A stretch of DNA of 64,000 bases from Microbulbifer pacificus (GTDB taxonomy: Bacteria > Pseudomonadota > Gammaproteobacteria > Pseudomonadales > Cellvibrionaceae). The notes beneath the pieces are model-generated. The model searched no databases. It was given only the letters and a program-made list of their open reading frames with translations, and was not told where the DNA came from. Within the stretch, counting starts at the first letter, position 1, and each line of letters starts with the position of its first letter. The translations under genes and the position numbers were made by a program. The stretch covers positions 372,001 to 436,000 of the forward strand of contig NZ_CP137555.1 in assembly GCF_033723955.1 (NCBI RefSeq), read 5' to 3'. This document shows positions 3 through 60,088 of this stretch, piece by piece.

Positions 3-1343
3 CAGTTGACATTGCCGCGAGCGGCAGCCGGCTGGCTGTTTGCGTTACTGACCAGTAATTTCAACCGCATCGCGATCTACGAACTCGGCATTGCCGCGGT
101 CGTGATCACCAGCCTGCTCGGCCTCTACCACTTCCTCTCACCGTTTCAGGTGATCTACGGTCGCATTGCTGACCGGGTACCGATATTTGGCCTGCACCGT
201 GCACCCTATGTATTGATCGGGATGGTCATTTCCGCGGTCGCGGTGGCAGCGCTGCCGTATATCGTGGTTCCCATGTCACAGAACCCGCACGAGTTGTTTG
301 GGCTGGGTATTCCCTACATTACCTACGCCGCCGCATTCCTGGTACTGATTGTGTTTGGGATCGGGTTTGCCATGGCGGGCGCCAATCACCTGGCACTGGT
401 TGCGGAGGTGATTCCCGAGCGCAGTCGCGGCCTGGTCACGGCCCTGATCTGGACCATGCTGATCATTGGCATGATCGTGTCGCTGCAGTTCATCCGCACC
501 TATATGCCGGATTACGACGAACAAACCATGCGTTCGCTATACCTGCTGTCGATCCCGGTAGTGGCAATTACCACGCTGCTCGGCGTGATCGGTGTCGACA
601 AGCCGCGTACACAGAATCACCAGGTAACGGGCGGCGGCAAACTGGAAGTGGACGAGCACGGCAGCCTGAAAGAGTTCGCCGCAGATGTCGTCCGTAACCC
701 AACGGTGCGCAACTTTTTCCTGTTTATCTTTCTGTTCATGTTCGGCTACAGCCTGCAAGACAACATCCTGGAAGTCTTCGGGGCAGAGGTCCTGCAAATG
801 ACAGTGGGCGAGACCGGACGCTTCCAGCAGATATGGGGCAGCGGTGCAATTGTCGGGATGTTCCTGATGGGCGCGCTGGTATTTCGCGGCGGCATTTCCA
901 AGATCAACGCCATCACGTTCGGTATCAGCGGCATTGGACTTTCCATGTTCGCGCTTGCCGTCGGCGCATACCTGGCGGCGGCACCGGTGGTCAATTGCTC
1001 GCTGGTCGCCATGGGCTTTTTCAACGGATTCGCATTGGTGGGCACCCTCACCAGCATGATGGAGTTCACCACGGATAAGGAACGCGGAGCCTATATCGGC
1101 CTGTGGGGGCTGGCGATCGCGTTCGCGAACGGCCTCGCGTCGATCGCCGGAGGGCAACTGGTGACATCGCTGATTGAAAGCGGCCTGCTGTCCGCCGCCA
1201 ATGGTTTTGCGATCATTTTCTTCATCGAGGGACTCGTCAGCCTCTACAGCCTGTACTTCCTGTGGAAGATCAATCTCGAAGGCTTCCGTCAGCGTATCAG
1301 CAAAGACGGCCTCAGCAGCGCCATGGCCGCGGATATGGGCTAA
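3..1343 (+). CDS. PucC/LhaA-family MFS transporter, first copy (5' partial)
   Basis: This is a 12-TM-type membrane protein of the PucC/LhaA/Bch2 branch of the major facilitator superfamily, whose known members serve (bacterio)chlorophyll or light-harvesting assembly in phototrophs. The segment NRIAIYELG followed by a short helix and then GRIADRVPIFGLHRAPY matches the family pattern after TM1 and TM2. The frame is open through the left edge, and alignment with the neighbouring paralogue suggests about a dozen N-terminal residues are missing, so the in-frame TTG at position 6 is probably not the start. It is followed 32 bases later by the paralogue. No bch, crt or puf genes are present, so import of chlorophyll derivatives is a reasonable inference; the substrate is unproven. 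Confidence 0.82.
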   Translation, partial: QLTLPRAAAGWLFALLTSNFNRIAIYELGIAAVVITSLLGLYHFLSPFQVIYGRIADRVPIFGLHRAPYVLIGMVISAVAVAALPYIVVPMSQNPHELFGLGIPYITYAAAFLVLIVFGIGFAMAGANHLALVAEVIPERSRGLVTALIWTMLIIGMIVSLQFIRTYMPDYDEQTMRSLYLLSIPVVAITTLLGVIGVDKPRTQNHQVTGGGKLEVDEHGSLKEFAADVVRNPTVRNFFLFIFLFMFGYSLQDNILEVFGAEVLQMTVGETGRFQQIWGSGAIVGMFLMGALVFRGGISKINAITFGISGIGLSMFALAVGAYLAAAPVVNCSLVAMGFFNGFALVGTLTSMMEFTTDKERGAYIGLWGLAIAFANGLASIAGGQLVTSLIESGLLSAANGFAIIFFIEGLVSLYSLYFLWKINLEGFRQRISKDGLSSAMAADMG

Positions 1344-1375
1344 GGCAAGTCAATTTATTCAAATGGTGAATTGAA

Positions 1376-2785
1376 ATGAAAGTAAGTGAAGGTCAGGCAA
1401 AATTACAGTTTACCCTGCAGAAAATCGCCATCGCCTGGAGCTTCTGCATGGTGGTGACCAGCTTCAACCGCATTGCCATCATCGAAATGGGCCTGCCCGC
1501 CGCGATAATTTCGCTGCTGATCGGGGTCTACACACTGTTCGGACCGATCCAGCCAATTATTGGCCGCATGTGTGAGCGCTGGCCAATTTTCGGCTATCGC
1601 CGCACCCCCTACATGTTGCTCGGAACCTTGCTCGGCAGCTGTGCATTTCCGCTGATGCCCGGTGTACTCGTCGACATGCAGGCTGGTAGCGGTCTCGCCT
1701 ATGTTTACTGCCTGCTGCTGTTCTGCGCCTTTGGTATTTGTATTGCCATGCAGGCGAACGTATTTCTCGACCTGCTGAATGAGGTCACCACCAAGGAGAG
1801 CCGCTCCAGGGTTGTGACCCTTACCTGGACTGTGCAGGCGCTGGCCATGGCCGGCTGGGCCTGGGTATTTGGTGCCTTAATGCCGGTATACAGTCTGGAA
1901 GCCATGCAGGATCTCTACAACCTGACACCGCTGGTCATGATCAGCATCACGATCCTCGGCCTGATAAAACTCGAGACTCGACTCAGCCCGGAACAGCTTG
2001 AAGCGATAAAAACCAATCCGCCAAAGCCGGTAAAACTGCTGGAGCCGATGAAAGAATCCATGGCCGTACTGGCCTACAACCGCCAGGCGCTGCTGTTCTT
2101 TGTCTTCATCATCTTTTCCCTGCTGTCGGTGTTCCTGCAGGACATGCTGCAGGAACTGTGGGCGGATGATCTTTTCGGCCTGCCCGCCGGTGAAGCCACC
2201 ATCTACCAGCGGTTCTACAACGGCATCCAGACCCTCGGCATGGCGGCCTGTGGCATCTTTGTCGGTGTTACCGCCAAGAAGCGCTTGCAAGCCAAAAAGG
2301 CTGCAGGTCTTTCCGTCGACAACGAGAAAACCCTGCCAATGGAGTTTGGCAAACGACTGATGGCGATCGGCGCTTCGCTGTCCATTCTCGGCTTTGTGCT
2401 GCTCGCCTGGGCTGCCTGGCTGCAAAACCTGACACTGTTCAACATCTTCTACTGCTACAGCGCCTTTGCCCTCGGCCTACTGGTGTTCCCATCCATCAGT
2501 TTCATGGCGGACATGACCGTAGAAGGCCAGGAGAGCCGCTATCTCGGGCTGTGGAGCCTGGCACAAGTCATTGGGCTGTTTCTTTCATTCACCGCCAGCG
2601 GGTCCCTCTACTCGCTGCTGGTGGAGAGTGAAGTTCTGACCGCGAACCTGGCGTTTGCACTCATTTTTGTCCTGCAGGCACTGATGGTGATCTTCAGTTT
2701 CCTGGTGGTGCGCAATGTCACCATAGAGGGCCTGCAGGCCGCCGCGGAGTTTGAACCAGATACCCAGGTTGCCGCCCAGGCGTAA
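1376..2785 (+). CDS. PucC/LhaA-family MFS transporter, second copy
   Basis: A 469-residue integral membrane protein paralogous to the gene before it. The shared core is SFNRIAIIEMG near residues 28-38, then GRMCERWPIFGYRRTPYML near residues 63-81, which is the PucC/LhaA signature region between TM2 and TM3. A soluble insert of roughly 50 residues (about 205-255) lies between the two halves, and another charged loop follows near residue 300. The two copies may form a heteromer or carry different tetrapyrrole-type substrates. It lies in a same-strand run with the Trm112-like and MetE-like genes. Family assignment is good; the substrate is inferred only from the chlorophyll-breakdown-like genes downstream. 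Confidence 0.85.
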   Translation: MKVSEGQAKLQFTLQKIAIAWSFCMVVTSFNRIAIIEMGLPAAIISLLIGVYTLFGPIQPIIGRMCERWPIFGYRRTPYMLLGTLLGSCAFPLMPGVLVDMQAGSGLAYVYCLLLFCAFGICIAMQANVFLDLLNEVTTKESRSRVVTLTWTVQALAMAGWAWVFGALMPVYSLEAMQDLYNLTPLVMISITILGLIKLETRLSPEQLEAIKTNPPKPVKLLEPMKESMAVLAYNRQALLFFVFIIFSLLSVFLQDMLQELWADDLFGLPAGEATIYQRFYNGIQTLGMAACGIFVGVTAKKRLQAKKAAGLSVDNEKTLPMEFGKRLMAIGASLSILGFVLLAWAAWLQNLTLFNIFYCYSAFALGLLVFPSISFMADMTVEGQESRYLGLWSLAQVIGLFLSFTASGSLYSLLVESEVLTANLAFALIFVLQALMVIFSFLVVRNVTIEGLQAAAEFEPDTQVAAQA

Positions 2786-4313: not shown

Positions 4314-4326
4314 ACAGGAGGTACTC

Positions 4327-6073: not shown

Positions 6074-8719
6074 TTAGAACCGATATCCGACATTCAGGCT
6101 GGTCATGCGACCCATGCGATTGATGATCGCGGGGATCTGCTCCTGGGTCCAGATATAAGGGCGATAAGCACTGGTCGGGGTGTCATCGTCCAGCAGGTTC
6201 TTGACGGTGAGCTTGGTGTACCAGTTATCACCCTCAACACCTGCCACCAGATTTGTATCCCAGTGGTCATCAATCCACAGGGTATTGACGGTATTGAGAT
6301 AGCGCTTGTCTTTCCACACTGAACTCAGGTCGGTATAGAACTCCGCACCGTTCCACAGGTCCTGGCTATAGCGGAAACCGGCACTAAAGGTATTGCGGTA
6401 ATTATTCACCATTTCCTTGCCGGAAAGGTCACCGTCCGATACCTGCGGCCCGTTGCTTGGGACCAGACAACTTTTGCTGCCTACTGCAGTGCGGTCGTAT
6501 ACATCAACACAGTAAGAATAACCGGTCGAATCCAGGCCCATCGCCTCGTAATCCACGAAACCAAACGTTGCGCTCTGTGAGCCTTTGACCACTTCGGCAT
6601 CGTTGAAGGTATACGCGGAGTGGAAGGCCCAGCTGTCACTGATCTGGAATGCGGTCTCAACTTCCACACCACGGATTTCCACCTCACCCAGGTTGGTTAC
6701 GATCGCAGCCGGAATTGTGTTGCCAGTGGAGTACTGGGAGAACTGGCGGATCTGCTGGTCATCCCAATTGATCTGGTACAGGGCGATATTCATGTAACCG
6801 CGACCATCAAGAACAGTACGCTTGGCACCTAGCTCGTAGGTCACGTTTTTTTCCGGTTCGTAGGTGATCTCTGATTCCAGTGGCGTGCCGCCGTTGATAC
6901 CACCAGACTTGGAACCTTCGGCAATATTCAGGTAGAAAGTGGTGTATTCATCGTAAATATAGGTAGCAATCAAGCGAGGAGACACCCAGTCCCAGCTTCC
7001 TTCTTGTGACCCCTGGGCGCCGGTAAAATGCAGCACATTGTCGGCAACCTTGTCTTCCTTGGTATAGCGCGCCTCCACACCCACATTCAGCTTGTCGGTC
7101 ACGTCATAGGCCAGTGCAGCGAATGCCGAGTACATTTCAGTGGAATGATTTGTCTGGGTAATCTTCTGCGGATTACCGTTTTCATCCACTGCCAGGAGAG
7201 AGGCAGCAATCGATGCACTGTTGACGGCATCGCCGTATGGACTGCCGCTGGCTGCCAGCGCGCTGGATGTCAGCCACTGATCCAGGTCGGTTTCGGAATA
7301 CAGCAAGCCCGCGCTCCACTGCAAGGCAGCAGAGTCATTGGACTGGATACGGAATTCCTGACTAATTACCTGGCGGTCATCGTTGGGCTGGCCACCATAG
7401 TTGTAGGCATTCACATTAAGCAGGTAGGCGGTTGTGCCCCCCAGAGAAAAATCACCGACATAGTTGGGCATATCTTCGGTCGCGGTGACAGGGCCTGACC
7501 CGGTATCGACCGCAATAACCGGTGCAAACACAATGGTGGGTGACATATAGGCGTTTGCATAACCGAGCAGGGAGCGGGTCTCTGTATCGGATGCGGCAGT
7601 AATGGAAGTGAGGGTCACATTGCCCACATCCCAGTTGACACGCATGCTGTATAGATCGGATTTATTGGTTACACCGAACGGGTTACCGGCAAAGCCATCG
7701 GGATCCGCCGCCTTGGCCTCACCGTAGTAGGCGGTGGGCGAACCGGTTAACAGCGCAATCGCCTCGGGCGTGAGGGTATTGGTGTCCGTATGGTACTCGC
7801 CAGCTATTGGCACAAACGGCCCAAACGGACCAGTTACGCCATCCGGACCAAACGGCCACAAAAATGGCGGATGTGTGGGGTCGGTTATCTCACCAAACGG
7901 TATCTCGGCGTTTCTCTCGATCTCGTAACCGGCATTGTGATGCTCCTGCATATCGACATGCGCGGCAGAGAAATCAAACTCGAGAGTGTCTGTAGGGTTG
8001 AACAGTACACGCAGACGCTGGGCTTCGTTGTCGATCGCACCCAGATATTCGTCGTTGTACTTGAAGGTGGAACCGGACTCGGAGTTAACAACATCCAGGC
8101 TAAATGCCAGCATGTCTCCTATTGGAGCCGCCACCCGGCCACTGATTCCGGCCTGCCCCTCGGCACCACCGGTAACCTCGAACTTGCCCTCAAATTCTTC
8201 ACCGGGCTTTGCGGTGATGTAGTTCATGGCACCGGAGAAGGCATTGCGGCCATAAATCGCCGACTGCGGCCCGCGGACCACTTCGATACGCTCAAGCCCC
8301 ATCATTGGCAAAAAGGTAGAGGCACGGCCCGAAACATATACGCCGTCGACAAACATTGCCACGTTGGTGTCGTCACCGATCAGGCCCGGCTGGCTCATGC
8401 CGCGGATACTGATGGCGCCGGTAGCGATGGTGCCTGAAGAATCGTAAACCAGGCCCGGGGAGCTACGCACCACATCCCGAAGATCCTGCATGGCGGACCG
8501 TTCGATATCCTTGGCCGAGAATGCGTTGATCGCGACCGGAATCTCCTGCAGGCTTTCCGTCCGGTTACGCGCCGTTACCGTTACCTCTTCCAGCACCGGC
8601 TGCCCTCGTGTGGACGCGCCGGCCTGGCTTACACTGTCATCAGGGGCTGCAATAGCTGTTGATGCGAGACTACCTGCCACGACCGCGATATAGAGCGGCT
8701 GCCGCTTGAACTTGGACAT
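6074..8719 (-). CDS. TonB-dependent outer membrane receptor
   Basis: An 881-residue receptor with a cleavable signal peptide (cut likely after ...ASTAIA near residue 24), a TonB-box-like EEVTVTARNR near residues 44-53, a plug domain with DVVRSSPGL and SIRGM, a large beta barrel and a C-terminal aromatic residue (NVGYRF). It imports a bulky ligand across the outer membrane using TonB energy. A strong GGAGGG lies just before the ATG. An operator-like sequence of the shared type lies about 165 bases upstream, so it may belong to the same regulon as the catabolic genes. A tetrapyrrole or pigment-derived ligand is inferred; the sequence also resembles the broad non-siderophore receptor group of marine gammaproteobacteria. 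Confidence 0.93.
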   Translation of the reverse strand: MSKFKRQPLYIAVVAGSLASTAIAAPDDSVSQAGASTRGQPVLEEVTVTARNRTESLQEIPVAINAFSAKDIERSAMQDLRDVVRSSPGLVYDSSGTIATGAISIRGMSQPGLIGDDTNVAMFVDGVYVSGRASTFLPMMGLERIEVVRGPQSAIYGRNAFSGAMNYITAKPGEEFEGKFEVTGGAEGQAGISGRVAAPIGDMLAFSLDVVNSESGSTFKYNDEYLGAIDNEAQRLRVLFNPTDTLEFDFSAAHVDMQEHHNAGYEIERNAEIPFGEITDPTHPPFLWPFGPDGVTGPFGPFVPIAGEYHTDTNTLTPEAIALLTGSPTAYYGEAKAADPDGFAGNPFGVTNKSDLYSMRVNWDVGNVTLTSITAASDTETRSLLGYANAYMSPTIVFAPVIAVDTGSGPVTATEDMPNYVGDFSLGGTTAYLLNVNAYNYGGQPNDDRQVISQEFRIQSNDSAALQWSAGLLYSETDLDQWLTSSALAASGSPYGDAVNSASIAASLLAVDENGNPQKITQTNHSTEMYSAFAALAYDVTDKLNVGVEARYTKEDKVADNVLHFTGAQGSQEGSWDWVSPRLIATYIYDEYTTFYLNIAEGSKSGGINGGTPLESEITYEPEKNVTYELGAKRTVLDGRGYMNIALYQINWDDQQIRQFSQYSTGNTIPAAIVTNLGEVEIRGVEVETAFQISDSWAFHSAYTFNDAEVVKGSQSATFGFVDYEAMGLDSTGYSYCVDVYDRTAVGSKSCLVPSNGPQVSDGDLSGKEMVNNYRNTFSAGFRYSQDLWNGAEFYTDLSSVWKDKRYLNTVNTLWIDDHWDTNLVAGVEGDNWYTKLTVKNLLDDDTPTSAYRPYIWTQEQIPAIINRMGRMTSLNVGYRF

Positions 8720-13674: not shown

Positions 13675-14850
13675 TCAGGCCGGCTCCGCTGCCGATGAGT
13701 CTTCAGCCTGGGTCGCCGCGCTGCGACGGGTCGGGGGTACCAACGGCACCGTATCCAATGCCCACTTGAAATGCGGATTGGTACGACGTGACGGCGAGGG
13801 AATGGTGAACACCTTTTCGCCCTCAAACGGCTTCATCGCCTTGGTGTCGATTTTCCAGCCTTTCTCTTCGATATGCTTGCGGCGAATCATTCGCCAGGCA
13901 CTCATGAACTTGTCCTGCTCAACGGATACTTCGTGTTCGAGGGACTCGGGCAGGTAGTTGGGTGACAGCTCCGCCACGATATCGCCATCTTCGCCAAATA
14001 CCTTGCGCGTGCGTTTTTTCGCCCCGTTGTCGAACATTGGCCATTTGAAGAAATTGCGCACCTGCACCGCAAACGAGCGCGTGGTAGTTTCATCAACCGG
14101 CGTATTGGCATCGAATATGATCATTTCCATCCAGGAATTGACCTTGATGTGCAGGCGCACGCAATGCCCCGGAAGATAAAATGCCGGGCTCACATAAGTG
14201 GCCGCCTTGTCGGCACGGAACAGTTTCATCAGACCGAAATTGCCTTCCAGCTGCGGCGGGTAAAGCACGTTGTCGGATGACCCCCAGTATTCGCCGCGAT
14301 CCACTTTGAGGATTTCATTCTTGTCGGCCATTTCCTGGTAGCCGAAACCGGGGTGCACAAAGGATGTATGCGCAATGTCGATACCGTTCTCGACCACGCG
14401 ATCCACGGAACCGGTCCAGCTGTACTCGACATCCACCGCACGCCAGTTGGCCTTGTCCTCATACTCCGGGAATTCCGGGATGGGATAGCGTTCCTCTTCG
14501 GGCAGGTCACCGAGGAACACCCAGATCATGCCGTAGCGCTCCTCCGTGGGGTAGGCGTCGATGCGCGCACGCTCGGGAATGGGTGCACCCTCCCCACGCG
14601 AAGGAATGAACTGCACCTTGCCTTCAGCATCGAATTCCCAGCCGTGGTAGGGGCAGGCCACGCAATCGCGCTTGGTGGTAAAGCCCTTGGACAGTGAACC
14701 ACCGCGGTGAATACACACATCACTCAGGCAGTTGACCTTACCACTCTTGTCACGAAACAGGACAAAGTTCTGCCCCAGCAGTTTGGCCCTTACGGGTTTG
14801 TCTTTAACCGCTTTGGACCACTCAGCCACATACCAAAGGTTCGTCAGCAT
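13675..14850 (-). CDS. Rieske-type oxygenase, candidate pheophorbide-oxygenase-like enzyme
   Basis: A 391-residue oxygenase alpha-type subunit. The Rieske [2Fe-2S] ligands are Cys46, His48, Cys66 and His69 (CIHRGG and CPYHGW). The mononuclear iron site is visible in ENGIDIAHTSFVH with Asp158, His161 and His166. I chose the ATG at 14850 because GAGGTGG lies five bases upstream; a GTG at 14859 overlaps that site. It is the last gene of a nine-gene operon of acyl-CoA chemistry. In this locus it is the best candidate to open the chlorophyll macrocycle, like plant PaO, but it lacks the C-terminal CxxC and membrane anchor of PaO. An O-demethylase or other aromatic hydroxylase role is also possible. 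Confidence 0.85.
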   Translation of the reverse strand: MLTNLWYVAEWSKAVKDKPVRAKLLGQNFVLFRDKSGKVNCLSDVCIHRGGSLSKGFTTKRDCVACPYHGWEFDAEGKVQFIPSRGEGAPIPERARIDAYPTEERYGMIWVFLGDLPEEERYPIPEFPEYEDKANWRAVDVEYSWTGSVDRVVENGIDIAHTSFVHPGFGYQEMADKNEILKVDRGEYWGSSDNVLYPPQLEGNFGLMKLFRADKAATYVSPAFYLPGHCVRLHIKVNSWMEMIIFDANTPVDETTTRSFAVQVRNFFKWPMFDNGAKKRTRKVFGEDGDIVAELSPNYLPESLEHEVSVEQDKFMSAWRMIRRKHIEEKGWKIDTKAMKPFEGEKVFTIPSPSRRTNPHFKWALDTVPLVPPTRRSAATQAEDSSAAEPA

Positions 14851-14942
14851 GATTACCACCTCAGTGTGTTATTGATCTGCCTGTGTACGCGCCTTCGCGC
14901 CAGTGAGATCACTCGTTTTATATTTATGTGTAATTTTTTCCG

Positions 14943-20764: not shown

Positions 20765-20788
20765 GCCCGACACACTCTCGTTACTGAC

Positions 20789-21997: not shown

Positions 21998-22051
21998 GGT
22001 AGCGCCTCCGCTTGATGATCATTATGGTCTGACCATCGTATTCTTGAGCTA

Positions 22052-22071
22052 ATGTTATGTCAATATAACAT
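22052..22071. promoter_or_regulatory. Putative regulon operator, copy B
   Basis: ATGTTATGTCAATATAACAT has perfect seven-base arms (ATGTTAT/ATAACAT) around a six-base spacer. It lies 55 bases upstream of the HapK-like gene, so it would control the operon ending with the Rieske oxygenase. Confidence 0.6.
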
Positions 22072-23825: not shown

Positions 23826-23845
23826 TTGATATACCTTTATATCAA
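23826..23845. promoter_or_regulatory. Putative regulon operator, copy C (perfect palindrome)
   Basis: TTGATATACCTTTATATCAA has perfect eight-base arms around CCTT. It sits between the divergent membrane-protein/GST unit and the isochorismatase/deacetylase unit and is the reference for the motif. Confidence 0.72.
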
Positions 23846-33010: not shown

Positions 33011-33043
33011 TGCGTGCTACGAAACCAGACTGAGGCCCGCACC

Positions 33044-42365: not shown

Positions 42366-42416
42366 AACCACTCGCCAATTATTGTTTTAAGTTTTCGGAT
42401 ACCGGTTACGCGCGGC

Positions 42417-43025: not shown

Positions 43026-43081
43026 GTTTGACCTGCACCTTGTCCAGCTAGCTATGGTTTTTTGAAAGGCCTGCGAGAACT

Positions 43082-46753: not shown

Positions 46754-47500
46754 TCAGGCGTTGTTTTTCAGCAGCGCCCGCAGCGCTTCGCTGCTGTCAC
46801 GGCCAATCAAGCCACTGATCTGATTCCAGACTTTATCCACCTGCGGATCGAAAACGATTTCGCGGTTGCGACGATCCCGCTCCGCCAGCGCGGCGCTGTC
46901 AACGGCTTCCAGCGCCTTTTCGCTCACGCCTTTTTCCAGCAGCGCGAACCAGTGATCCAGGTAGGCACTCACGGTGTCGTCGATCTTCGCGAACGCTTCC
47001 GGCGTGGCGCGGTGAACCAGCATCCATGGCGACATCACCGCCAGCTGGCGGATATCCAGCTGCGCGGTACTCAAACCTTCCATCGCGCGCGCGGCCTTGC
47101 AGGTCTCGGTCAGCGGGGTATACACCTCATCCATGTAGGCGAGGTTCGCACCGAGATCGAGGCGCGGCACCAGGTCGAGGTGAAAAGCGCAGTAGGGGCC
47201 ACCGCTCACGGAATCCAGGGTGAAATGCGGTACCGCACTTTCACCCGGGGTAAACGCAAACAGCATGTGGGAGTCGAGACCGATCTGCGGTACTACCAAT
47301 GCACAGGTGATCATCTGCTGCAGTCCGCCGCCGGAGTAGACCCGCACCTCACCTACCTTCCCCTGCGCCATCGGCGCGTGGCTTTCGAGTGTCATGTAAG
47401 GGCCGCCGTCTTCACCGGGGATCTCGGTAAGGCCGAGTTTTTCGATGAGCTGGTCGCGGGTTTTCTGTGCCAGTGCCTGGGGCAGTGAAGCTGCACTCAT
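46754..47500 (-). CDS. RCCR/ferredoxin-dependent bilin reductase-like protein 2
   Basis: A 248-residue protein sharing the RCCR layout with the 32198 protein but diverged. VPHFTLDSVSG (90-100) aligns with IPHLGMAFGTL there and with plant APNFVVELIQS; AYLDHWFAL (179-187) matches AYVDHWLSL; ERDRRNREIVFD (207-218) matches the RD...RR..IV..D block. The acid position of plant Glu154 is Asp96, and Asp218 matches the second active-site Asp. So unlike copy 1 it keeps both candidate proton donors, more like bilin reductases. It sits between the tandem nitrilase and the flavoprotein gene. Confidence 0.75.
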   Translation of the reverse strand: MSAASLPQALAQKTRDQLIEKLGLTEIPGEDGGPYMTLESHAPMAQGKVGEVRVYSGGGLQQMITCALVVPQIGLDSHMLFAFTPGESAVPHFTLDSVSGGPYCAFHLDLVPRLDLGANLAYMDEVYTPLTETCKAARAMEGLSTAQLDIRQLAVMSPWMLVHRATPEAFAKIDDTVSAYLDHWFALLEKGVSEKALEAVDSAALAERDRRNREIVFDPQVDKVWNQISGLIGRDSSEALRALLKNNA

Positions 47501-49559: not shown

Positions 49560-50876
49560 ATGACCACTCAACAGGAACGCTGGTTCCGCGCGGAAAACGT
49601 GACTGTTCCGAATGTGCTGACATTCTACTTCGCCTGCCTCACCGCCATCATGTTCGCCTCCTTCATTCCCCAGAGCCAGCCATTCCTGCTGACAGAATTC
49701 CTCAATATCCCGCAGGAACGCCACGGCATGGTGAGCGGGCTGCTGAACTTCTGGGCCGAGATTGCCATCATCATTGCCGTCGCGATCTTTGGCCCGCTCT
49801 CCGACCGTTTCGGCCGTCGCCCGATTACCGGTATCGGTTTCCTACTGATGTCCGCAGGAATCGCGCTCTACCCCCACGCGAGCAATTTGGGCGAACTACT
49901 CATCATCCGCCTGATTTATGCGGTCGGACTGGCGGCGGTTACCACCACCATTGTCGCCCTGGTTGCGGACTATGTGCGGGACGAAAGTCGGGGCCTCGCC
50001 ACCGGCTTGCAAGGTGTGATGAACGGCGTCGGTGCCATGATTTGCGTGTTCCTGCTGCTGCAACTCCCGGCCATACTCCAGCGCGGCGGCGCCACCGCCC
50101 ATGAAGCGGGCATCCAGACCTACAGCATTGTGGCCGCGATATCCTTTATCACCGGGATTCTGATGCTGATCGGCCTCAAGCCCGGCAGCAGTCGCGCCCC
50201 CAGTGAGCACAGCGAAAGCCTGCTGAGCATCGCCCGCAACGGCCTGCGCGCCGCAAAGGACCCGCAAATCGCCCTCGCCTACGGCGCCTCATTTGTGGCG
50301 CGCGGCAACCTGATGATCGTGGGCACCTTCTTTTCCCTGTGGGTCACCAACTACGGCACCGCCGAGATGGGTATGAGCCCTGCGGACGCACTGGCCCGCG
50401 CGGGCATGTTTATCGCTATCGCCCAGGGATGCGCAACGCTCGCCGCACCCGTGTTCGGCATCATGGCCGACAAAATTACCCGCGTGCGCGCACTGATCAT
50501 CGCACTGCTGATCTCCGCCATCGGCTACGGCTCCACCATTTTCATCCACGACCCGTTCACCCCGGGGATGATCGTATGCGCCGTACTGATCGGCCTCGGG
50601 GAAATCGGCTGCATCATCACCAGTGGCGTACTCGTGGCCCAGCAGGCCCCGGAATCCCACCGCGGCGCGGTCATCGGATTCTTCACCCTGTCCGGTGCCG
50701 TGGGTATTCTGGCGGCGAGCGTCGTGGGCGGTTACCTGTTTGATACTTGGCGCGCTTCGGGGCCGTTTGTGTTTTTCAGTGTGGTGGCAACGCTGGTGCT
50801 GGTGTGGGCGATTGTTCTGGAACGGCGCTCTGCGAGTGGTGAAGCGCGGACGCAATTGGTCGGTGAAACTGCGTAA
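49560..50876 (+). CDS. MFS transporter, copy C
   Basis: A 438-residue 12-segment transporter paralogous to the 30854 gene: FGPLSDRFGRRPITGIG near residue 79, LVADYVRDESRGLATG near residue 137, and GLRAAKDPQIALAYGASFVARGN in the central loop region. It is divergent from the nitrilase/RCCR-like operon with a shared operator between them and is followed by a good terminator, so it is a single-gene unit. It presumably takes up or expels a pathway compound; the substrate is unknown. Confidence 0.92.
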   Translation: MTTQQERWFRAENVTVPNVLTFYFACLTAIMFASFIPQSQPFLLTEFLNIPQERHGMVSGLLNFWAEIAIIIAVAIFGPLSDRFGRRPITGIGFLLMSAGIALYPHASNLGELLIIRLIYAVGLAAVTTTIVALVADYVRDESRGLATGLQGVMNGVGAMICVFLLLQLPAILQRGGATAHEAGIQTYSIVAAISFITGILMLIGLKPGSSRAPSEHSESLLSIARNGLRAAKDPQIALAYGASFVARGNLMIVGTFFSLWVTNYGTAEMGMSPADALARAGMFIAIAQGCATLAAPVFGIMADKITRVRALIIALLISAIGYGSTIFIHDPFTPGMIVCAVLIGLGEIGCIITSGVLVAQQAPESHRGAVIGFFTLSGAVGILAASVVGGYLFDTWRASGPFVFFSVVATLVLVWAIVLERRSASGEARTQLVGETA

Positions 50877-52868: not shown

Positions 52869-53675
52869 TCAGGCGGGATGGGAATCGTAAACGGCAAACA
52901 GGTCGCGCTTGTTAAAGCCGGCGGTGAGAAAACGCCAGAAAGCCTTGCGAGTCGTCAACCAGGCTACGCGACTGCCGCTTTTCTGCGCTTTCAGTACACC
53001 CTGCACCAGATAGGGTGTGACTGTCTCGACGGTATCGCCGAGAATATTGAGAATCTTGCGGGTTTTCTGCCACTCACTGGAAGTGAAGTCATAATCGCCG
53101 ACTAGCAGATCCGTCACAACAATACCGGGGCTCAGGGTATTGACCTGCACCGCCGTGCCCTTCACTTCTTTCTGCAGCGAAGTAGTGACGTAATTGAGTG
53201 CGCGCTTGGTGGCCCCATAGGCGGCCATGCCGGTATTGGTCTGTCCCGTGCTGCCGAACCCTTCCATATTCCAGATCTGGCCGAAGCCCTGTTTCTGCAT
53301 GCCCGCCAGAGCAATCTTGCAGGCTAGCAACAGGCCGGTGAGGTTGGTATCGACAATCCTTCGCAGATCATCCGCCGACTGTTCGGCGAGCGGCTTGCGC
53401 ACAATGCTCATGCCGGCGTTGTTGATCCAGTAATCCACCGGACCTTTTTCACTGGCGAATGTCCACAGCTCGGCCAATTCCTGCTCAGATGTGATTTCGC
53501 AGCGCAACCCCGCCACCGCTTCAATGCCGTACACGGCCTGCAACTCGCTGACGGCTTCATCCACTTTACTCTGGGAGCGGGCACTCACGATCACCCGACA
53601 GCCGCTGGCGAGGAAGTTTTCTGCCAGGCCACGGCCGATACCACGGGTGCTACCTGTAATTACTACCGTTTTCAT
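52869..53675 (-). CDS. SDR resembling chlorophyll b reductase (NYC1/NOL-like), copy 2
   Basis: A 268-residue SDR. VVITGSTRGIGRGLAENFL at residue 4, WINNAG near residue 84, GFGQIWNMEGFGS, catalytic AYGATKRALNYV near residue 151 and LSPGIVVTDLLVGDYD near residue 180 follow the NYC1/NOL chlorophyll b reductase layout, including the C-terminal VAWLTTRKAFWRFL corresponding to plant VNYLTPPRILL. It is a diverged paralogue of the 29943 protein. Its promoter faces the 53778 gene with an operator between them. Reduction of a pigment carbonyl is the inferred role. Confidence 0.85.
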   Translation of the reverse strand: MKTVVITGSTRGIGRGLAENFLASGCRVIVSARSQSKVDEAVSELQAVYGIEAVAGLRCEITSEQELAELWTFASEKGPVDYWINNAGMSIVRKPLAEQSADDLRRIVDTNLTGLLLACKIALAGMQKQGFGQIWNMEGFGSTGQTNTGMAAYGATKRALNYVTTSLQKEVKGTAVQVNTLSPGIVVTDLLVGDYDFTSSEWQKTRKILNILGDTVETVTPYLVQGVLKAQKSGSRVAWLTTRKAFWRFLTAGFNKRDLFAVYDSHPA

Positions 53676-53754
53676 AAATTTCCCTCGTTAATAGGCAAGT
53701 CGGATTGAAGGCAGCCCGTGCCGAGATACTGGTTGCAGGCGTTATTTTGAGTTA

Positions 53755-53774
53755 TTGTTATATCATTAACACCT
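53755..53774. promoter_or_regulatory. Putative regulon operator, copy H
   Basis: TTGTTATATCATTAACACCT, between the divergent NOL-like SDR and calycin-like gene, keeps the TTGxTATATCxTTA part of the motif. Confidence 0.52.
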
Positions 53775-53777
53775 TTA

Positions 53778-54440
53778 ATGCAAGACGATAGCAAAATGTC
53801 CGAAATTTCTGCCGACAAACCTGCAACTTCTACCAGCTACCCCACCTTCCCCATTGGCTCCGTGGGTTACAACCTCATGCTTATGCGCGGCACCTGGCAC
53901 GACCAGGTGGAGCTTTTTCACCTCGACGGCCGTCCGCTGGAAGACGATACCACCGCGGGCAGCGGCACACCGGGACCCAGCCCGTTCGACAATCTGGTTT
54001 ACCTGGATTTCGATGGGCAGCGACTGCAACTGACCAACGTGCACTTTCGCGGCCGTAATCCCACTGCGAAAACCTTTACCGGCCAGCTGCGCGACAACCT
54101 GCTGGTATTCGATCCGCTCGGCCCCGGCGCCTATGAAAATGTCGGGGTGTCCGGCGGTGTCGGCATTCTGACTTTCAATGCACTGCGTCTTGGCCAGGCC
54201 TGCGATGTTTATATGGAGCCGGACTTCATTATGCTCACCGCGCCCGGCCAGCGGGTTCGCCACACGGTACTGTATCGGGACGGCGTTGCCACCCGCACCC
54301 TGACCGCACGCGGTGTTCGCCTGTCGCCGACCTGTGACCGCCGCCATGCGCTGGACCCTCGCGGCAGCGAAGGCCCAGTGCACGAAACCCCCTTCCGCTC
54401 TTCCATCTGGCAACACCTGGTGGAATCTACCCCGGCCTGA
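53778..54440 (+). CDS. Hypothetical beta-rich (calycin-like?) protein
   Basis: A 220-residue soluble protein that is rich in alternating hydrophobic strands (NLVYLDFDGQRLQLTNVHF, GGVGILTFNALRLGQ). I cannot assign a family; a lipocalin/MoaF-like beta-barrel is a guess. No ribosome site stands out, and Met7 at 53796 is an equally good start because the operator lies very close to 53778. It lies divergent from the NOL-like SDR and ahead of the rubredoxin fusion and another beta-rich protein, so it may bind a pigment or bilin intermediate; inference only. Confidence 0.75.
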   Translation: MQDDSKMSEISADKPATSTSYPTFPIGSVGYNLMLMRGTWHDQVELFHLDGRPLEDDTTAGSGTPGPSPFDNLVYLDFDGQRLQLTNVHFRGRNPTAKTFTGQLRDNLLVFDPLGPGAYENVGVSGGVGILTFNALRLGQACDVYMEPDFIMLTAPGQRVRHTVLYRDGVATRTLTARGVRLSPTCDRRHALDPRGSEGPVHETPFRSSIWQHLVESTPA

Positions 54441-54583: not shown

Positions 54584-56017
54584 ATGCAGGAGTATCGAAT
54601 TTGGGAGTGCCTGGTTTGCGGCTGGGTTTACGATGAATCCAAGGGCGCGCCGGAAGATGGCATCCCACCAGGCACCCGCTGGGAAGACGTGCCTAAAGAC
54701 TGGCAGTGCCCGGAGTGCGGCGTCGGTAAAGACGATTTCGAAATGGTCGAGGTGCGCCGCATTGCGCTGACCACAGAAGCCCCGGCCACCGAGGATAAGC
54801 CTGCACCCCCTGCTCCGGTGCAGGTGGCCGCATCGTCACAAGTTGACTTCAACCTGGAACCGATCGTTATCGTCGGTACCGGACTCGCCGGTTACCACCT
54901 GGCCAAAGAACTGCGCAAACTCGATCAGAAAACCCCGCTGGTCATGATTTCCGCGGACGATGGCGCACACTATTCGAAACCGCAGCTCAGTACCGCGTTT
55001 CACAAACAGCGCACACCGGAGCAGCTGGTGAGCAACACCGCGCGGGAAATGGCGGAAAGCCATGATGCCCGAATTCTCACCTTTACCCATGTCACCGCCC
55101 TGGATACCGCATCCAGGGTTTTGACCCTGCGCGCGGGCTCCCACGACCAGCGGATGCACTACGGCAAACTGGTACTGGCCCTGGGCTCCGATCCGATAGA
55201 AGTACCGATGGCCGGCAGCGCAGCGGGCTCTGCGTACAGCATCAACGATCTGCAGGATTTCCAGCGATTCTTCACCGCCGTACCCGGCGCAATGTCCGTG
55301 CTGGTAATCGGTGCCGGACTGATTGGCTGTGAATACGCCAATGACCTTATTCAGTCAGGATATGCAGTGCATGTGGTCGAGCCTCAGGCCAATGTACTCG
55401 GCAACCTTATTCCCGCTACCGCAGGCAGCCTGGTACAAAATACTCTGGAAAACGCCGGTGTGCGCTTTCATCTGGGCACCACCGTCAAGGCATTGGAATA
55501 TTCGGTGGGAGGCACCCGTGCCGAACTGGCGGACGGTACCCAGCTGCAGGTTGACCGGGTGATCAGCGCCATTGGCGTGCGCCCGCGGGTGGAACTGGCA
55601 GAGCGCAGCGGCATCCACACCGCCCGCGGCATTGTCACCGACCGCTATCTGGCCACCAGTGCGGAACACGTCTATGCCCTGGGCGATTGCGCGGAAGTAG
55701 ACGGCCACAATCTCTGCTATATCGCGCCATTACTGGCGGGTGCCCGCGCGCTGGCGCAGACCCTGGCGGGTAGCCCGACCCCAGTGCATTACGGCAATAT
55801 GCCGGTCAGTATCAAGACCACCCTGTGTCCGGTGACCGTGTCACCTCCGCCGCGCAATGCCGCTGGCGACTGGCGTTTTGAGCGCAGCGATGCCCGCGGC
55901 ATTGTCGCGCACTTTATCGCCAGCAACGGGCAATTGCAGGGCTTTGCGCTGGTGGGCGATGCGTGCAAACACGCCTCCGCCCTCAGCGAACTGACCACAC
56001 CAATAATGCAGAATTGA
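54584..56017 (+). CDS. Rubredoxin fused to rubredoxin reductase
   Basis: A 477-residue electron-transfer protein. Residues 1-55 are a rubredoxin with iron ligands Cys9, Cys12, Cys42 and Cys45. A proline/alanine-rich linker (about 63-85) leads to an FAD/NAD reductase: FAD motif [17 protein letters not shown] near residue 91, NAD motif [15 protein letters not shown] near residue 238, and [12 protein letters not shown] near residue 363. It can pass NADH electrons to a terminal oxygenase or reductase. The Rieske oxygenase and the RCCR-like proteins, which need one-electron donors and have no ferredoxin gene in the window, are obvious clients by inference. Confidence 0.93.
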
Positions 56018-56114: not shown

Positions 56115-57086
56115 ATGAGCAACGATAAAACACCCAGCAACTGGCAAAAGGCGATCGAAGGCGAATGGCACGGCCTGCCCTCACTGTTCGAGGCGGACGG
56201 TACCCACGTCGGTTACAACAAAGTCAGCCGCGCCAGTGAATTCGAAAACGGGCGCACCACCTACTGGATGAACACCCGATTCGACGCTACCGGCCCACTG
56301 AACGACCGCTTTGAAATCGGTTCCCCGTTCCGCTTTGGCGTTATCGATTCCGACCAGGACCGTATCTACACCGGCCCGGACTTTTTCGGCAGCGGCCGCC
56401 CTTACGGACTGCTGGTGGACTCCAATTACTTTTCCCCGGGCTGGAACGTGAATCTGCGCACCATGAACCATGTGGTGCCGGAACTGGGCATCCAGGTGTA
56501 CTCATCCCAGCTGTTCGAGGCGGACACCCTGGTAGGCGTGTTCAATGGTCTGTACGTCGTCACCCAGGACCACCAGACCAACCCGGCAACCCAGAAGCGC
56601 GTGACCGCATTTCTGGACAAGGAAAAGAGCGATGGCAAACGCCCGTTCAACCTGCCGGTCAAACACGCGGGCAAGTTTTCCGGCCGTTTCGAGGTCTACA
56701 ACGACAAGCAGGAGCTGGTGGGCCACAACGATGTGGTGATCCATCACAAGCCACTGAACCTGCTGCACTCGGAGCAGACTATCGAAATCAGCGGCGTGGT
56801 GAATGCCAAGTGGACCGCCATGCGCACCCGCACCGGCAACCACCACCAGTACCACGGCCCGGATATGTTCGGTAACGGTATGTCCTACGGCCGCTACCTC
56901 TACTCGGTGCGCCATGTATTTGGCCAGGCCTTCAAGCTCTGGTCGCGGGAAACCCAGGTGGATGAAGATTACACCCTGGTGTGCGCCTGGCAGTTCATGC
57001 AGTCGCAGAAAGAAAAATACACCACCTTCGGCGTGCTGCGCTGGGAACAGGGTGACCTGATACTGGGAGCAAACCATGTCGATTGA
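56115..57086 (+). CDS. Hypothetical protein with internally duplicated beta-barrel-like domain
   Basis: A 323-residue protein of no family known to me. The two halves look like repeats: GEWHGLPSLFEADGTHVGYN (residue 15) against SGRFEVYNDKQELVGHND (near 190), and TGPDFFGSGRPYGLLVDS (near 84) against HGPDMFGNGMSYGRYLYS (near 250). Each half would be about 150 residues of beta strands, lipocalin/calycin-like in style. No signal peptide is seen. It overlaps the flavin reductase start by 11 bases, so they are co-expressed. Binding of a hydrophobic pigment fragment is conceivable. Confidence 0.78.
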   Translation: MSNDKTPSNWQKAIEGEWHGLPSLFEADGTHVGYNKVSRASEFENGRTTYWMNTRFDATGPLNDRFEIGSPFRFGVIDSDQDRIYTGPDFFGSGRPYGLLVDSNYFSPGWNVNLRTMNHVVPELGIQVYSSQLFEADTLVGVFNGLYVVTQDHQTNPATQKRVTAFLDKEKSDGKRPFNLPVKHAGKFSGRFEVYNDKQELVGHNDVVIHHKPLNLLHSEQTIEISGVVNAKWTAMRTRTGNHHQYHGPDMFGNGMSYGRYLYSVRHVFGQAFKLWSRETQVDEDYTLVCAWQFMQSQKEKYTTFGVLRWEQGDLILGANHVD

Positions 57087-57606
57087 AGCGGAGCTGCTGA
57101 GACCGATCAGCACGGAAATCCTCACCCAGAAGCACACCGTTGAACCGCTGCAGCTGCGCCAGGTGTTCGGCCAGTTCGCAACCGGTGTCACCATCATCAC
57201 CACCAGCAATGAAGCCGGTGAACCGGTGGGCATGACCGCGAGCAGTTTCAATACGGTTTCCCTGGACCCGGCACTGATTCTCTGGTGTATCGGCAAGAAC
57301 ACCGGCTGCTTCGATGCGTTCAATCGCTGTGAACATTTTGCGATTCACGTATTGAATGAGGAGCAGGAATCACTCTCTTCCCTGTTCGCCCGCCGCGGTG
57401 TCGACCGCTTCGCCGGACTGGATTACGAGATCAATGAACAGGGCGTTCCCCTGCTGAATGAATTCTGTGCGCGCCTGCAGTGCTCCGTCGCGGCCCGCTA
57501 CGAAGGTGGTGACCACCTCATCATGGTTGGCCGAGTCGAGGCCATGCACACCCAGGATCACGAACCCCTGCTGTTTCATCGCGGACACTACGCCCGCATT
57601 GCCTGA
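57076..57606 (+). CDS. Flavin reductase (HpaC/NtaB-like)
   Basis: A 176-residue flavin reductase-like domain protein: LRQVFGQFATGVTIITT near residue 27, GMTASSFNTVSLDPALILWC near residue 50 and the late LLFHRGHYARI are diagnostic. It supplies reduced flavin to two-component monooxygenases. The acyl-CoA-dehydrogenase-fold flavoprotein at 45373 is the best partner in this window. It closes the plus-strand unit starting at 53778 and is followed by a terminator. Confidence 0.94.
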   Translation: MSIEAELLRPISTEILTQKHTVEPLQLRQVFGQFATGVTIITTSNEAGEPVGMTASSFNTVSLDPALILWCIGKNTGCFDAFNRCEHFAIHVLNEEQESLSSLFARRGVDRFAGLDYEINEQGVPLLNEFCARLQCSVAARYEGGDHLIMVGRVEAMHTQDHEPLLFHRGHYARIA

Positions 57607-57769: not shown

Positions 57770-58723
57770 TCAGGCGAATTCCACCTGCGCAATTCCCGCA
57801 CGCCGAAAGCCTTTCGGCAGGCCAGCATCCGGCAGAAACCCGTACAGTGGCTCTTCCGGTAGCGCTGCGGCGAGTATTTCACGCGCCCCCATCAATTTCT
57901 CAAAGTCCACCCCGGTGCGATAGCCCATGGCCTCCAGCAGGAATACCAGGTCTTCGGTGACGATATTGCCACTGGCGCCGGGCGCAAACGGACAGCCGCC
58001 GATGCCACCCATGGAAGCATCCACAGTGGTAATCCCCTCCTCGATGGCCGCCAGCACATTCGCCAGCCCCTGACCACGGGTGTTGTGCAGATGGATGCCG
58101 TGCAGCGCGTCGCGCCCCAGGTTCTCCCATATACGGCGAATCATCCTGCGCACCTGCACCGGGTTGCCATAGCCGGTGGTATCCGAAAGTCCCACTTCGT
58201 CACAACCGGCTTCCATCAGCGCTTCGGCCAGGCGCAACACCGCATCTTCGGCAACCGCGCCCTCCAGGGTGCAACCAAAACAGGTGGACAGGCTACCCTC
58301 GAAGCTCGGCCGCTGTTCCGCTGGCAGGCCGTTTAGCAAAGCGCGAATCCCCCGCACCTCTTCCAGTACCTGATCATGCGTGCGGCGCAGGTTTTTCAGG
58401 CTATGGGTTTCACTCACCGATAGCGGAATGGTCAGTTTGTGCGCGCCGGCGGCAACGGCACCCTGCGCACCGCGCAGATTGGGTACCAGCACCGCCACCG
58501 TGAGGCCGGGAATGGTCCGCGCGAACTGTACGATCTCCGCGGTATCTGCCAGCTGCGGCAACACTTTTGCCGGCACAAAGGAGCCGACTTCAATTTCCCG
58601 CAAACCGGCGGCCGCAAGTGCGGTAATCCAGCGTTTTTTGTCAGCTGTCGCCATGATGCTGCTGATGCTCTGCAGACCATCGCGCGGCCCTACTTCGCTG
58701 ATCTCGATATCAATGTCACCCAC
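57770..58723 (-). CDS. HMG-CoA lyase-like enzyme, copy 2
   Basis: A 317-residue DRE-TIM metallolyase with EISEVGPRDGLQSI near the N-terminus, REIEVGSFVPAKVLPQLAD, GIHLHNTRGQGLAN and GIGGCPFAPGASGN carrying the catalytic cysteine. I chose the GTG at 58723 (AGGGA seven bases upstream); the frame continues to a TTG at 58759. It faces a class III CoA-transferase gene across an operator copy, so again a transferase is matched with a lyase. A mid-protein insert SLSTCFGCTLEG follows the usual layout for this enzyme group. Confidence 0.92.
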   Translation of the reverse strand: MGDIDIEISEVGPRDGLQSISSIMATADKKRWITALAAAGLREIEVGSFVPAKVLPQLADTAEIVQFARTIPGLTVAVLVPNLRGAQGAVAAGAHKLTIPLSVSETHSLKNLRRTHDQVLEEVRGIRALLNGLPAEQRPSFEGSLSTCFGCTLEGAVAEDAVLRLAEALMEAGCDEVGLSDTTGYGNPVQVRRMIRRIWENLGRDALHGIHLHNTRGQGLANVLAAIEEGITTVDASMGGIGGCPFAPGASGNIVTEDLVFLLEAMGYRTGVDFEKLMGAREILAAALPEEPLYGFLPDAGLPKGFRRAGIAQVEFA

Positions 58724-58799
58724 TCGCACTTCCCTCGTCTGTTTGCTCTGGCAATTCAAGCTTGTCTCTCGGGCCTGTCGACACCGGCCGCTTGATCTA

Positions 58800-58819: not shown

Positions 58820-58876
58820 ATTGACCAGTACCTGCATGGAACATTCCATTTCGGGCATTTCATTGGAGAGCCGTTG

Positions 58877-60088
58877 ATGGCACATCAGGAAGTTTTACCG
58901 CTCGCCGGCATCAAGGTGGTCGAGTTTACCCATATGGTGATGGGCCCCGCCGCAGGCTGCATTCTTGCGGACCTGGGCGCTGAGGTCACCAAGGTCGAGC
59001 CCTACGAGGGAGATAACACCCGGCGGCTTCAGGGTTCGGGTGCGGGCTACTTTGCCATGTACAACCGCAACAAGCGCAGCCTGGCGCTGGACCTGAAATC
59101 CCCGGAGGGCCGCGACGTCGCGCTGCGTCTTGTGGACGAGGCCGATGTGGTCATCGAGAACTTTCGCCACGGTGCCATGGATCGTCTCGGCTTTGGCTAT
59201 GCGGCGCTCAGCGAGCGGAACCCGGGGTTGATTTACTGCTCGCTGAAAGGTTTCCTCAGCGGCCCTTACGAACACCGCACCGCGCTGGATGAAGTCACCC
59301 AGATGATGGGCGGGCTCGCCTATATGACCGGCCTGCCCGACCGCCCGCTGCGCGCCGGCACTTCGGTTATCGACATTACCGGCGGCATGTTCGGGGTCAT
59401 CGCCATCCTGTCCGCGTTGCAGCAGCGCCACGCCACCGGGCGCGGCCAGCATGTGACCAGTTCCCTGTTCGAGACCACCGCCTTCCTGGTGGGTCAGCAT
59501 ATGGCGCAACAGGCAGTGACCGGCGAGGAGCCACCGCCCATGTCAGTGCGCCGCAGCGCCTGGTCCATTTACGACATATTCCACAGCGCCGAGGGCGATC
59601 GCGTTTTCGTCGGCGTGGTCAGTGACACCCTGTGGCGGGCCTTCTGCAGCGAATTCAAGCTGACCGATCTCGCCGAGGATTCTACCCTCGCCAGCAACGC
59701 CGGACGGGTTACCGCACGGGAGCGCCTGCTGCCGCGCATCAGCGCACTGTTTGCGAGCCTGCCTAAATCGGAGCTGATGGCGCGGCTGGATCGCGCCGGC
59801 ATCCCATTCGCGCCGATCAACAAGCCTACCGACCTGTTCGAGGACCCGCATCTGAACGCCGCCGGTGGATTGGTGGAACTCACCCTGGACAACGGCCAGC
59901 GCACGCTCCTCCCGGCACTGCCGGTGGAGTTCGGCGGCCGCCGCCCAGGCCTGCGTCGCGACATTCCGAAAGTGGGCGAACAAAGCATCGAGGTCGCGCG
60001 TGCTGTGGGCCTGAGTGAATCCCAGATCGAGGCTCTGATCAAGCACGGGGTGCTGCAGGCCAGTCACCGCGAGGAGATGGCAGTATGA
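58877..60088 (+). CDS. Class III (CaiB/BaiF family) acyl-CoA transferase, copy 4
   Basis: A 403-residue CoA-transferase with AGIKVVEFTHMVMGPAAG, ADLGAEVTKVEPYEGD, RNKRSLALDLKSPEG and the Asp-bearing SVIDITGGMFGVIAIL stretch. The ATG at 58877 has GGAGAG six bases upstream; the TTG before it is unlikely. Its divergent partner is an HMG-CoA-lyase-like gene, suggesting activation followed by cleavage of the same acid. It is the fourth member of the family in this window, and its acid substrate is unknown. Confidence 0.91.
   Translation: MAHQEVLPLAGIKVVEFTHMVMGPAAGCILADLGAEVTKVEPYEGDNTRRLQGSGAGYFAMYNRNKRSLALDLKSPEGRDVALRLVDEADVVIENFRHGAMDRLGFGYAALSERNPGLIYCSLKGFLSGPYEHRTALDEVTQMMGGLAYMTGLPDRPLRAGTSVIDITGGMFGVIAILSALQQRHATGRGQHVTSSLFETTAFLVGQHMAQQAVTGEEPPPMSVRRSAWSIYDIFHSAEGDRVFVGVVSDTLWRAFCSEFKLTDLAEDSTLASNAGRVTARERLLPRISALFASLPKSELMARLDRAGIPFAPINKPTDLFEDPHLNAAGGLVELTLDNGQRTLLPALPVEFGGRRPGLRRDIPKVGEQSIEVARAVGLSESQIEALIKHGVLQASHREEMAV

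Follow-up and report, generated by a model that had tools for sequence, protein, structure and literature searches.

A 64-kb stretch of the Microbulbifer pacificus genome (bases 372001-436000 of one complete contig of 4,194,096 bases; hereafter the window) carries relatives of red chlorophyll catabolite (RCC) reductase, or RCCR, and of NOL/NYC1, both known from chlorophyll breakdown in plants. Here we report that these genes belong to a jointly inherited and probably jointly regulated tetrapyrrole-catabolic locus, a conclusion that is well supported, and that chlorophyll is, judging from the sequences, its likely substrate. The gene cluster continues for about 13 kb beyond the right window edge, which is straddled by an amidase gene, to about L005:12831 (L005 is the host's own locus stretch that holds this outer part, in its own coordinates). 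This part contains a third RCCR-type gene (RCCR2), a chlorophyllase-clan esterase of the alpha/beta hydrolase type, an aconitase/LeuCD-like hydratase and two MmgE/PrpD proteins. Within the window there was no tRNA and no Rfam match at gathering level. The features of the window are listed below with their strand (a dot for sites matching the operator-like pattern TTGATATAnnnnTATATCAA); fractions of 80 refer to compared loci, and G135 to a genome of another genus, both discussed further on.

3..1343, +, PucC-like major facilitator superfamily (MFS) transporter 1; PF03209 223.7 bits; start upstream of the window
1376..2785, +, PucC-like MFS transporter 2; PF03209 157.7 bits
3201..4313, +, MetE C-terminal-domain-like protein; PF01717 70 bits; its counterpart adjoins the PucC pair in the G135 RCCR3 cluster
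6074..8719, -, TonB-dependent outer-membrane receptor, candidate pigment importer; PF07715 Plug; 68% homologue in the G135 cluster
13675..14859, -, Rieske oxygenase outside the PaO family, candidate for macrocycle opening; PF00355 and PF19112 (VanA_C)
14943..16058, -, CoA-transferase family III; PF02515
16099..17370, -, CoA-transferase family III; PF02515
17292..18464, -, acyl-CoA dehydrogenase; PF00441 and others
18493..19011, -, MaoC/mesaconyl-CoA hydratase-like; PF19315 89.4 bits, cut-off 26.5
19032..19865, -, HpcH/HpaI C-C lyase, citramalyl-CoA-lyase-like; PF03328; best NCBIfam NF038242 RipC, 224 bits, below cut-off 375
19865..20773, -, PuuE-type cyclic imide/amide hydrolase 1; PF01522; TIGR03212 252 bits, below cut-off 424.6
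20789..21643, -, ordinary short-chain dehydrogenase/reductase (SDR), not NOL-like; PF13561; 55 bits to the NOL query
21686..22018, -, HapK/REDY-like small protein; PF11639 39.4 bits, cut-off 25
22044..22063,., operator-like site upstream of 21686-22018; 3 mismatches
23826..23845,., operator, perfect palindrome, upstream of 23898; 0 mismatches
23898..24563, +, isochorismatase-type amidohydrolase 2; PF00857 104.8 bits
24563..25549, +, PuuE-type cyclic imide/amide hydrolase 2; PF01522; PuuE allantoinase in PDB, 3e-19
25546..26490, +, polysaccharide-deacetylase-fold hydrolase 3; PF01522 43.9 bits
26515..27342, +, GntR/UTRA regulator, candidate operator binder; PF00392 and PF07702
28095..29840, -, CN-hydrolase 1; PF00795, 2 stretches
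29873..29892,., operator-like site between CN-hydrolase 1 and NOL1; 3 mismatches
29943..30740, +, NOL/NYC1-like SDR 1 (NOL1); 135.5 bits, 40% to the NOL query; the genome's second-best SDR
30854..32188, +, MFS transporter; PF07690
32198..33010, +, RCC reductase family protein RCCR1; PF06405 50.6 bits, cut-off 24.9
33014..33910, +, PrpB/2,3-dimethylmalate-lyase-type C-C lyase; PF13714; PDB 4iqd 8e-54 (best), PrpB 3eoo 1.2e-51, dimethylmalate lyase 3fa3 2.6e-43
33924..35396, +, aldehyde dehydrogenase; PF00171
35966..36883, -, HMG-CoA-lyase-like; PF00682
36901..38106, -, CoA-transferase family III; PF02515
38161..38937, -, maleate-isomerase/arylmalonate-decarboxylase-fold protein 1; PF17645 62.5 bits
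39011..40219, -, MFS transporter; PF07690
40262..41095, -, maleate-isomerase/arylmalonate-decarboxylase-fold protein 2; PF17645 43.2 bits; putative maleate isomerase 2xed, 4.9e-9
41151..42371, -, FAD-dependent monooxygenase; PF01494 194 bits; near RCCR3 in 40/80 loci
42417..43085, -, isochorismatase-type amidohydrolase 1; PF00857; N-carbamoylsarcosine amidohydrolase 2e-41
43082..43960, -, alpha/beta hydrolase; PF00561
43924..45366, -, aldehyde dehydrogenase; PF00171
45373..46659, -, acyl-CoA-dehydrogenase-fold flavoenzyme, candidate flavin monooxygenase; PF02771/PF02770; 57/80 loci
46754..47500, -, RCCR3, divergent, with the RCCR/bilin-reductase fold and the two catalytic aspartates; PF06405 only 17 bits
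47650..49380, -, CN-hydrolase 2; PF00795, 2 stretches
49560..50876, +, MFS transporter; PF07690; 26/80 loci
52869..53675, -, NOL/NYC1-like SDR 2 (NOL2); 153.1 bits, 41% to the NOL query; the genome's best SDR
53747..53766,., operator-like site between NOL2 and Hyp220; 3 mismatches
53778..54440, +, Hyp220, conserved, family unassigned; no match in Pfam scan; 21/80 loci
54584..56017, +, rubredoxin and rubredoxin-reductase fusion, candidate electron supply; PF00301, PF07992 and PF18113; 5/80 loci only
56115..57086, +, double-calycin protein Hyp323, candidate tetrapyrrole carrier; near BFA1 and DUF3598
57076..57606, +, flavin reductase; PF01613 147 bits; 22/80 loci
57770..58759, -, HMG-CoA-lyase-like (HMGL2); PF00682
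58792..58819,., two operator-like sites that overlap, between HMGL2 and CoA transferase 4; 3 and 2 mismatches
58874..60088, +, CoA-transferase family III (CoA transferase 4); PF02515

RCCR1 and, outside the window, RCCR2 (L005:10120-10941) are members of the RCC reductase family PF06405, with 50.6 and 52.3 bits against a curated cut-off of 24.9, and on sequence grounds are candidate reductases of red chlorophyll catabolite; the family profile matches Arabidopsis RCCR at 7.9e-19. The initial annotation had counted two RCCR/bilin-reductase-like proteins in the window. That count stands for RCCR1 by Pfam, and for RCCR3 by fold and active site but not by the PF06405 cut-off, since its 17 bits led us to reject it as a member and to file it under the fold shared by RCCR and ferredoxin-dependent bilin reductases (FDBR). 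The same profile reaches 19 of 24 RCCR3 relatives at E <=10 (best 7e-5), and the predicted model of RCCR3 shares its fold with plant RCCR and bilin reductases, so that by modelled fold RCCR3 is a member of the RCCR/FDBR superfamily. Its D96 and D222 are kept in all 24 rows of alignment A1 (the query and 23 of 120 listed relatives, themselves the best 120 of 1609) and line up with Asp-99 and Asp-219 of the bilin reductase GtPEBB in a sequence alignment of very distant proteins, at about 15% identity. Both GtPEBB residues are essential according to PMC6755814. The RCCR1/RCCR2 type is without the full aspartate pair: across 21 rows (alignment A2, 19 of 46 listed relatives plus the two from the host genome) the first position is A in 20 and V in one, and the second is D in all. 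In a 41-row tree, all 15 RCCR3 rows form one clade that spans several phyla (support 100/99). Arabidopsis RCCR joins the RCCR2 type in the same tree (89/90) on a long branch, a placement that hints at a bacterial origin of plant RCCR.

The two NYC1/NOL-like SDRs claimed for the window proved to be the genome's two best matches to NOL, using a provisional NOL query sequence not drawn from a database record: NOL2 scores 153 bits (41% identity), NOL1 135 bits (40%) and the third SDR of the genome 60 bits. Both match over almost their full length, are nearer to NOL than the host's other SDRs, and may be viewed as candidate chlorophyll b reductases. In five of five genomes (the host and four other carriers, for which placement was deduced from locus coordinates) the SDR closest to this NOL query sits in or beside the RCCR3 locus. 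The SDR at 20789-21643 was rejected as NOL-like at 55 bits.

A Rieske oxygenase had likewise been noted, with PaO among the families to be sought. The protein at 13675-14859 is a Rieske non-heme iron oxygenase, in which C49/H51/C69/H72 and D161/H164/H169, which we take to be the Rieske and mononuclear-iron ligands, are invariant in 23 selected rows. Its kinship with PaO was rejected: the protein combines Rieske and VanA_C domains, and the PaO C-terminal domain PF08417 was not among its domain matches, nor was it found in any of six other carriers searched, although it was present in the cyanobacterial G167. The rubredoxin-reductase fusion was confirmed by its three domains at 54584-56017. Both PucC-like transporters pass PF03209 (224 and 158 bits, cut-off 21), and their reported occurrence without photosynthesis genes agrees with the absence of the reaction-centre family PF00124 from a profile search of the host genome, in which a control cyanobacterium gave a match. 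Because PF03209 also matches 9 of 14 control genomes, a PucC function is not implied. Hyp323, a double calycin, is close to BFA1 and DUF3598. The acyl-CoA-dehydrogenase-fold protein at 45373-46659 draws a mixture of acyl-CoA dehydrogenases, DszC and nitrososynthase from the PDB, and by sequence both roles, dehydrogenase or DszC-type monooxygenase, are open to it. The host esterase (L005:11851-12831) was rejected as a chlorophyllase by profile, having no match at 0.1 to PF07224 or to PF12740 (named PETase in the profile set used and tested beside PF07224 as a chlorophyllase profile); of its orthologues, that of L066 falls below PF07224 (23.6 against 26) and that of L074 passes PF12740 (28.8 against 28).

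These genes travel together. We compared 80 of 128 loci with RCCR3 relatives by tblastn (matches below 40% query coverage and overlaps above 30% dropped; some loci without full 10-kb flanks). RCCR3, as the bait, is present in all 80 by construction, and within about 10 kb of it lie the acyl-CoA-dehydrogenase-fold protein in 57 loci, Hyp323 in 54, the Rieske protein in 52, NOL in 50, the esterase in 48 and RCCR1/2 in 39. At least three of five core partners occur in 52 of the 80 loci: 9/32 in Gammaproteobacteria, 16/17 in Actinomycetota, 23/26 in Chloroflexota and 4/5 in others, with phylum groups assigned by hand. The low gammaproteobacterial figure may partly reflect the larger clusters there, as the host Rieske gene sits 32 kb from RCCR3. 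The commonest orders, counting adjacency among matched genes only, are Rieske-RCCR3-Hyp323 (35/80) and CN-hydrolase-RCCR3-acyl-CoA-dehydrogenase-fold (30/80). A control of 60 kb of the host genome, the sole background used, gave six weak matches, to SDRs and one aldehyde dehydrogenase. Rieske, RCCR3, calycin, NOL, esterase and RCCR genes form a core that recurs in three phyla or classes (Gammaproteobacteria, Actinomycetota and Chloroflexota), in carriers that include Microbulbifer, Nocardioides and Catellatospora. Alignments A3-A5 draw on 31 loci picked by hand from the 80, with L032 left out of all three and L071 and L084 (Rieske 28-32%) also left out of A5.

Co-occurrence tells the same story. 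Of 144 genomes in the host family, 14 contain RCCR3, and an even sample of the class gives 4 of 369, counting the host genome and one weak match; so rare and patchy a distribution is that of an accessory unit. The same 14 genomes carry Hyp323 and a Rieske match above 510 bits (next best 170). PucC matches below 1e-60 occur in eight of the 144, all among the 14 with RCCR3 and in none of the 130 without it (Fisher 8e-10, uncorrected for kinship, with seven of the eight belonging to one genus). Linkage and co-occurrence across the compared genomes are the reason why we regard the genes as inherited together. In G135 the order runs Rieske, NOL2, PucC1, PucC2, MetE-like, a small protein, PfkB, a weak membrane-protein match, TonB, S-adenosylhomocysteine hydrolase (AHCY), S-adenosylmethionine synthetase (MetK), RCCR3 and the acyl-CoA-dehydrogenase-fold protein. 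In that genome the unit therefore includes the left arm of the window.

The suggestion of one apparent operator was borne out. At <=3 mismatches the window holds six TTGATATAnnnnTATATCAA sites against 0.01 expected; the whole genome holds 14, against five for a reversed-pattern control, and seven of these lie between 394044 and 443358, a span of about 50 kb. One site precedes the aconitase-type genes to the right of the window. Against the same control, sites numbered 1 versus 0 in the host's own L005, 9 versus 2 in Microbulbifer kin, 10 versus 0 in 20 other gammaproteobacterial loci, 1 versus 0 in G135 and 2 versus 0 in G101, and 0 versus 0 in G095, the host's own flanks and 10 Actinomycetota loci. 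The GntR/UTRA regulator at 26515-27342, the putative binder, likely holds the regulon together through this site.

The many imide/amide hydrolases and the branched-diacid CoA enzymes previously described were both recovered by profile. Candidates for nitrogen removal are three polysaccharide-deacetylase-fold proteins (two nearest PuuE), two isochorismatase-type proteins, two CN-hydrolases and one amidase; the branched-diacid set comprises CoA transferases, MaoC, an HpcH protein nearest RipC, HMGL-like lyases and the PrpB/dimethylmalate-lyase (PEP-mutase) type. When chlorophyll rings are cleaved oxidatively, dialkyl-substituted maleimides result, and their hydrolysis yields branched maleates, a logic that the downstream set fits. 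In the two maleate-isomerase-fold proteins (38161-38937 and 40262-41095), Ser apparently replaces the first of what we presume to be the pair of catalytic cysteines of maleate isomerase, and these proteins may catalyse a reaction other than maleate isomerisation.

Based on these observations, we suggest that the locus is probably an assimilatory tetrapyrrole-catabolic regulon whose likeliest substrates are chlorophylls or their dephytylated or demetallated products. The proposal of a chlorophyll/linear-tetrapyrrole catabolic locus had made profile tests of the RCCR, NOL-like and PucC proteins its touchstone, and these came out in its favour, as did co-inheritance. From gene families, folds, kept linkage and the recurrent operator-like site, we infer the substrate, the reactions and their order as follows. 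Pigment would enter through the TonB receptor and PucC-type transporters, lose its ester tail to the alpha/beta hydrolase encoded outside the window, and have carbonyls such as the chlorophyll b formyl adjusted by the NOL-like SDRs. The Rieske protein would open the macrocycle, a PaO-like step by a different oxygenase family, with electrons perhaps from the rubredoxin-reductase fusion; RCCR3 would reduce the opened tetrapyrrole, carried by the double-calycin protein, and flavin enzymes would split it into pyrrole or maleimide units. Nitrogen might then be removed by the PuuE-type, isochorismatase-type and CN-hydrolases, and the branched diacids be converted by hydratases, CoA transferases and C-C lyases to pyruvate and acyl-CoAs, all likely under GntR control through the TTGATATAnnnnTATATCAA operator.

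Other explanations have to be weighed against this one. The locus could degrade bilins that are already open (biliverdin, or cyanobacterial and red-algal phycobilins), with the RCCR proteins acting as bilin reductases; we regard this as unlikely, as it leaves the linked Rieske protein, chlorophyllase-clan esterase, NOL-like SDRs and PucC without an obvious role. Very unlikely, in our view, is a system for detoxification or turnover, in which photosensitising pigments are only opened and bleached, as in plants, and the carbon is left unused: the compact core of Actinomycetota and the reaction centres of 5 of 28 carriers speak for it, but the hydrolases, CoA transferases and lyases of the downstream set have operator and neighbourhood in common with the rest. 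No reaction-centre match was obtained in the other 23 carriers tested.

The downstream enzyme set would fit other N-heterocycles as well, and the upstream genes therefore carry the chlorophyll argument. A pyridine, pyrrole alkaloid or prodigiosin-like pigment might be the substrate, with the likeness to RCCR and NOL incidental. The isochorismatase, maleate-isomerase-fold and FAD monooxygenase proteins do resemble the enzyme set of nicotinate-type pathways, and the HapK-like protein belongs to a prodigiosin-cluster family, but a single co-inherited unit combines two members of the RCCR family, a third protein of that fold, a pair of NOL-like SDRs and PucC, which makes such a coincidence less probable again than detoxification. 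That the locus is the remnant of a lost photosynthesis cluster, as PucC and the chlorophyll-related homologues could suggest, is scarcely credible given its patchy occurrence (14/144 genomes), the lack of PF00124, and a Pfam scan of 57 window proteins in which no family for pigment biosynthesis was matched.

The assimilatory chlorophyll regulon that we favour has RCCR-family, NOL-like, Rieske and esterase proteins in common with the plant PaO/phyllobilin pathway (NYC1/NOL, SGR, PPH/CLH, PaO, RCCR). It differs in its Rieske family, in being a bacterial regulon and in adding a downstream carbon pathway; we know of none for chlorophyll catabolites in plants. The SGR Mg-dechelatase profile PF12638 gave no match in 22 carriers, in a search equally silent in every control genome. 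With the dimethylmaleate, 2-methylcitrate and itaconate-type branched-diacid routes it shares a PrpB-type lyase, a RipC-like lyase and a LeuCD-like hydratase, and, unlike them, joins such enzymes to imide/amide hydrolases and tetrapyrrole genes. RCCR3 shares fold and aspartate pair with the ferredoxin-dependent bilin reductases, including pre-PcyA of heterotrophic bacteria, whose clusters, according to Rockwell 2023 (PMC10151467), include genes for heme oxygenase, V4R, Fe-S and globin proteins; the heme oxygenase, V4R and globin families were unmatched among the scanned window proteins. Bacterial SGR homologues with Mg-dechelatase activity, as described in PMC8531759 and PMC11006732, are also chlorophyll-breakdown homologues in non-photosynthetic bacteria, including Anaerolineae, and the enzyme differs from the set found here. 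Among the matches listed in open-licence PMC full text, a corpus apart from preprints and most subscription papers, there was no description of bacterial genes for opening or mineralising the chlorophyll ring. What would be new is a bacterial version of a plant pathway that serves assimilation and opens the ring with another kind of oxygenase.

A bolder and, we think, rather doubtful proposal is that free-living heterotrophs from at least three phyla have an entire oxygen-dependent pathway leading from chlorophyll to central metabolites, spread as a regulon, and that plant RCCR and NOL/NYC1 descend from it and not from cyanobacteria. If true, leaf de-greening borrowed enzymes first used for eating chlorophyll, a pigment made and lost globally every year. 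If the chlorophyll reading of the locus itself is right, ring opening would have named genes in named bacteria (Microbulbifer, Nocardioides, Catellatospora), the process would become trackable in metagenomes, and the origin of plant RCCR and NOL would become testable.

Some further features accompany the locus. The five carriers with reaction-centre matches (L049, L056, L071, L084, L085) include a Leptolyngbyaceae metagenome-assembled genome and Candidatus Roseilinea, where the locus genes might recycle the cell's own pigment. The HapK/REDY-like protein, of a family known from prodigiosin clusters, lies here within a putative pyrrole-degrading locus. Beside the PucC pair, 3201-12008 encodes MetE-C-like, PfkB kinase, AHCY and MetK proteins, which look like a methyl cycle by sequence. 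In an Anaerolineae locus, three more proteins without a Pfam family and a DUF3891 protein lie beside the core (L052:4765-7827), and an amidohydrolase (L052:16789-18291) could stand in for the PuuE-type hydrolases.

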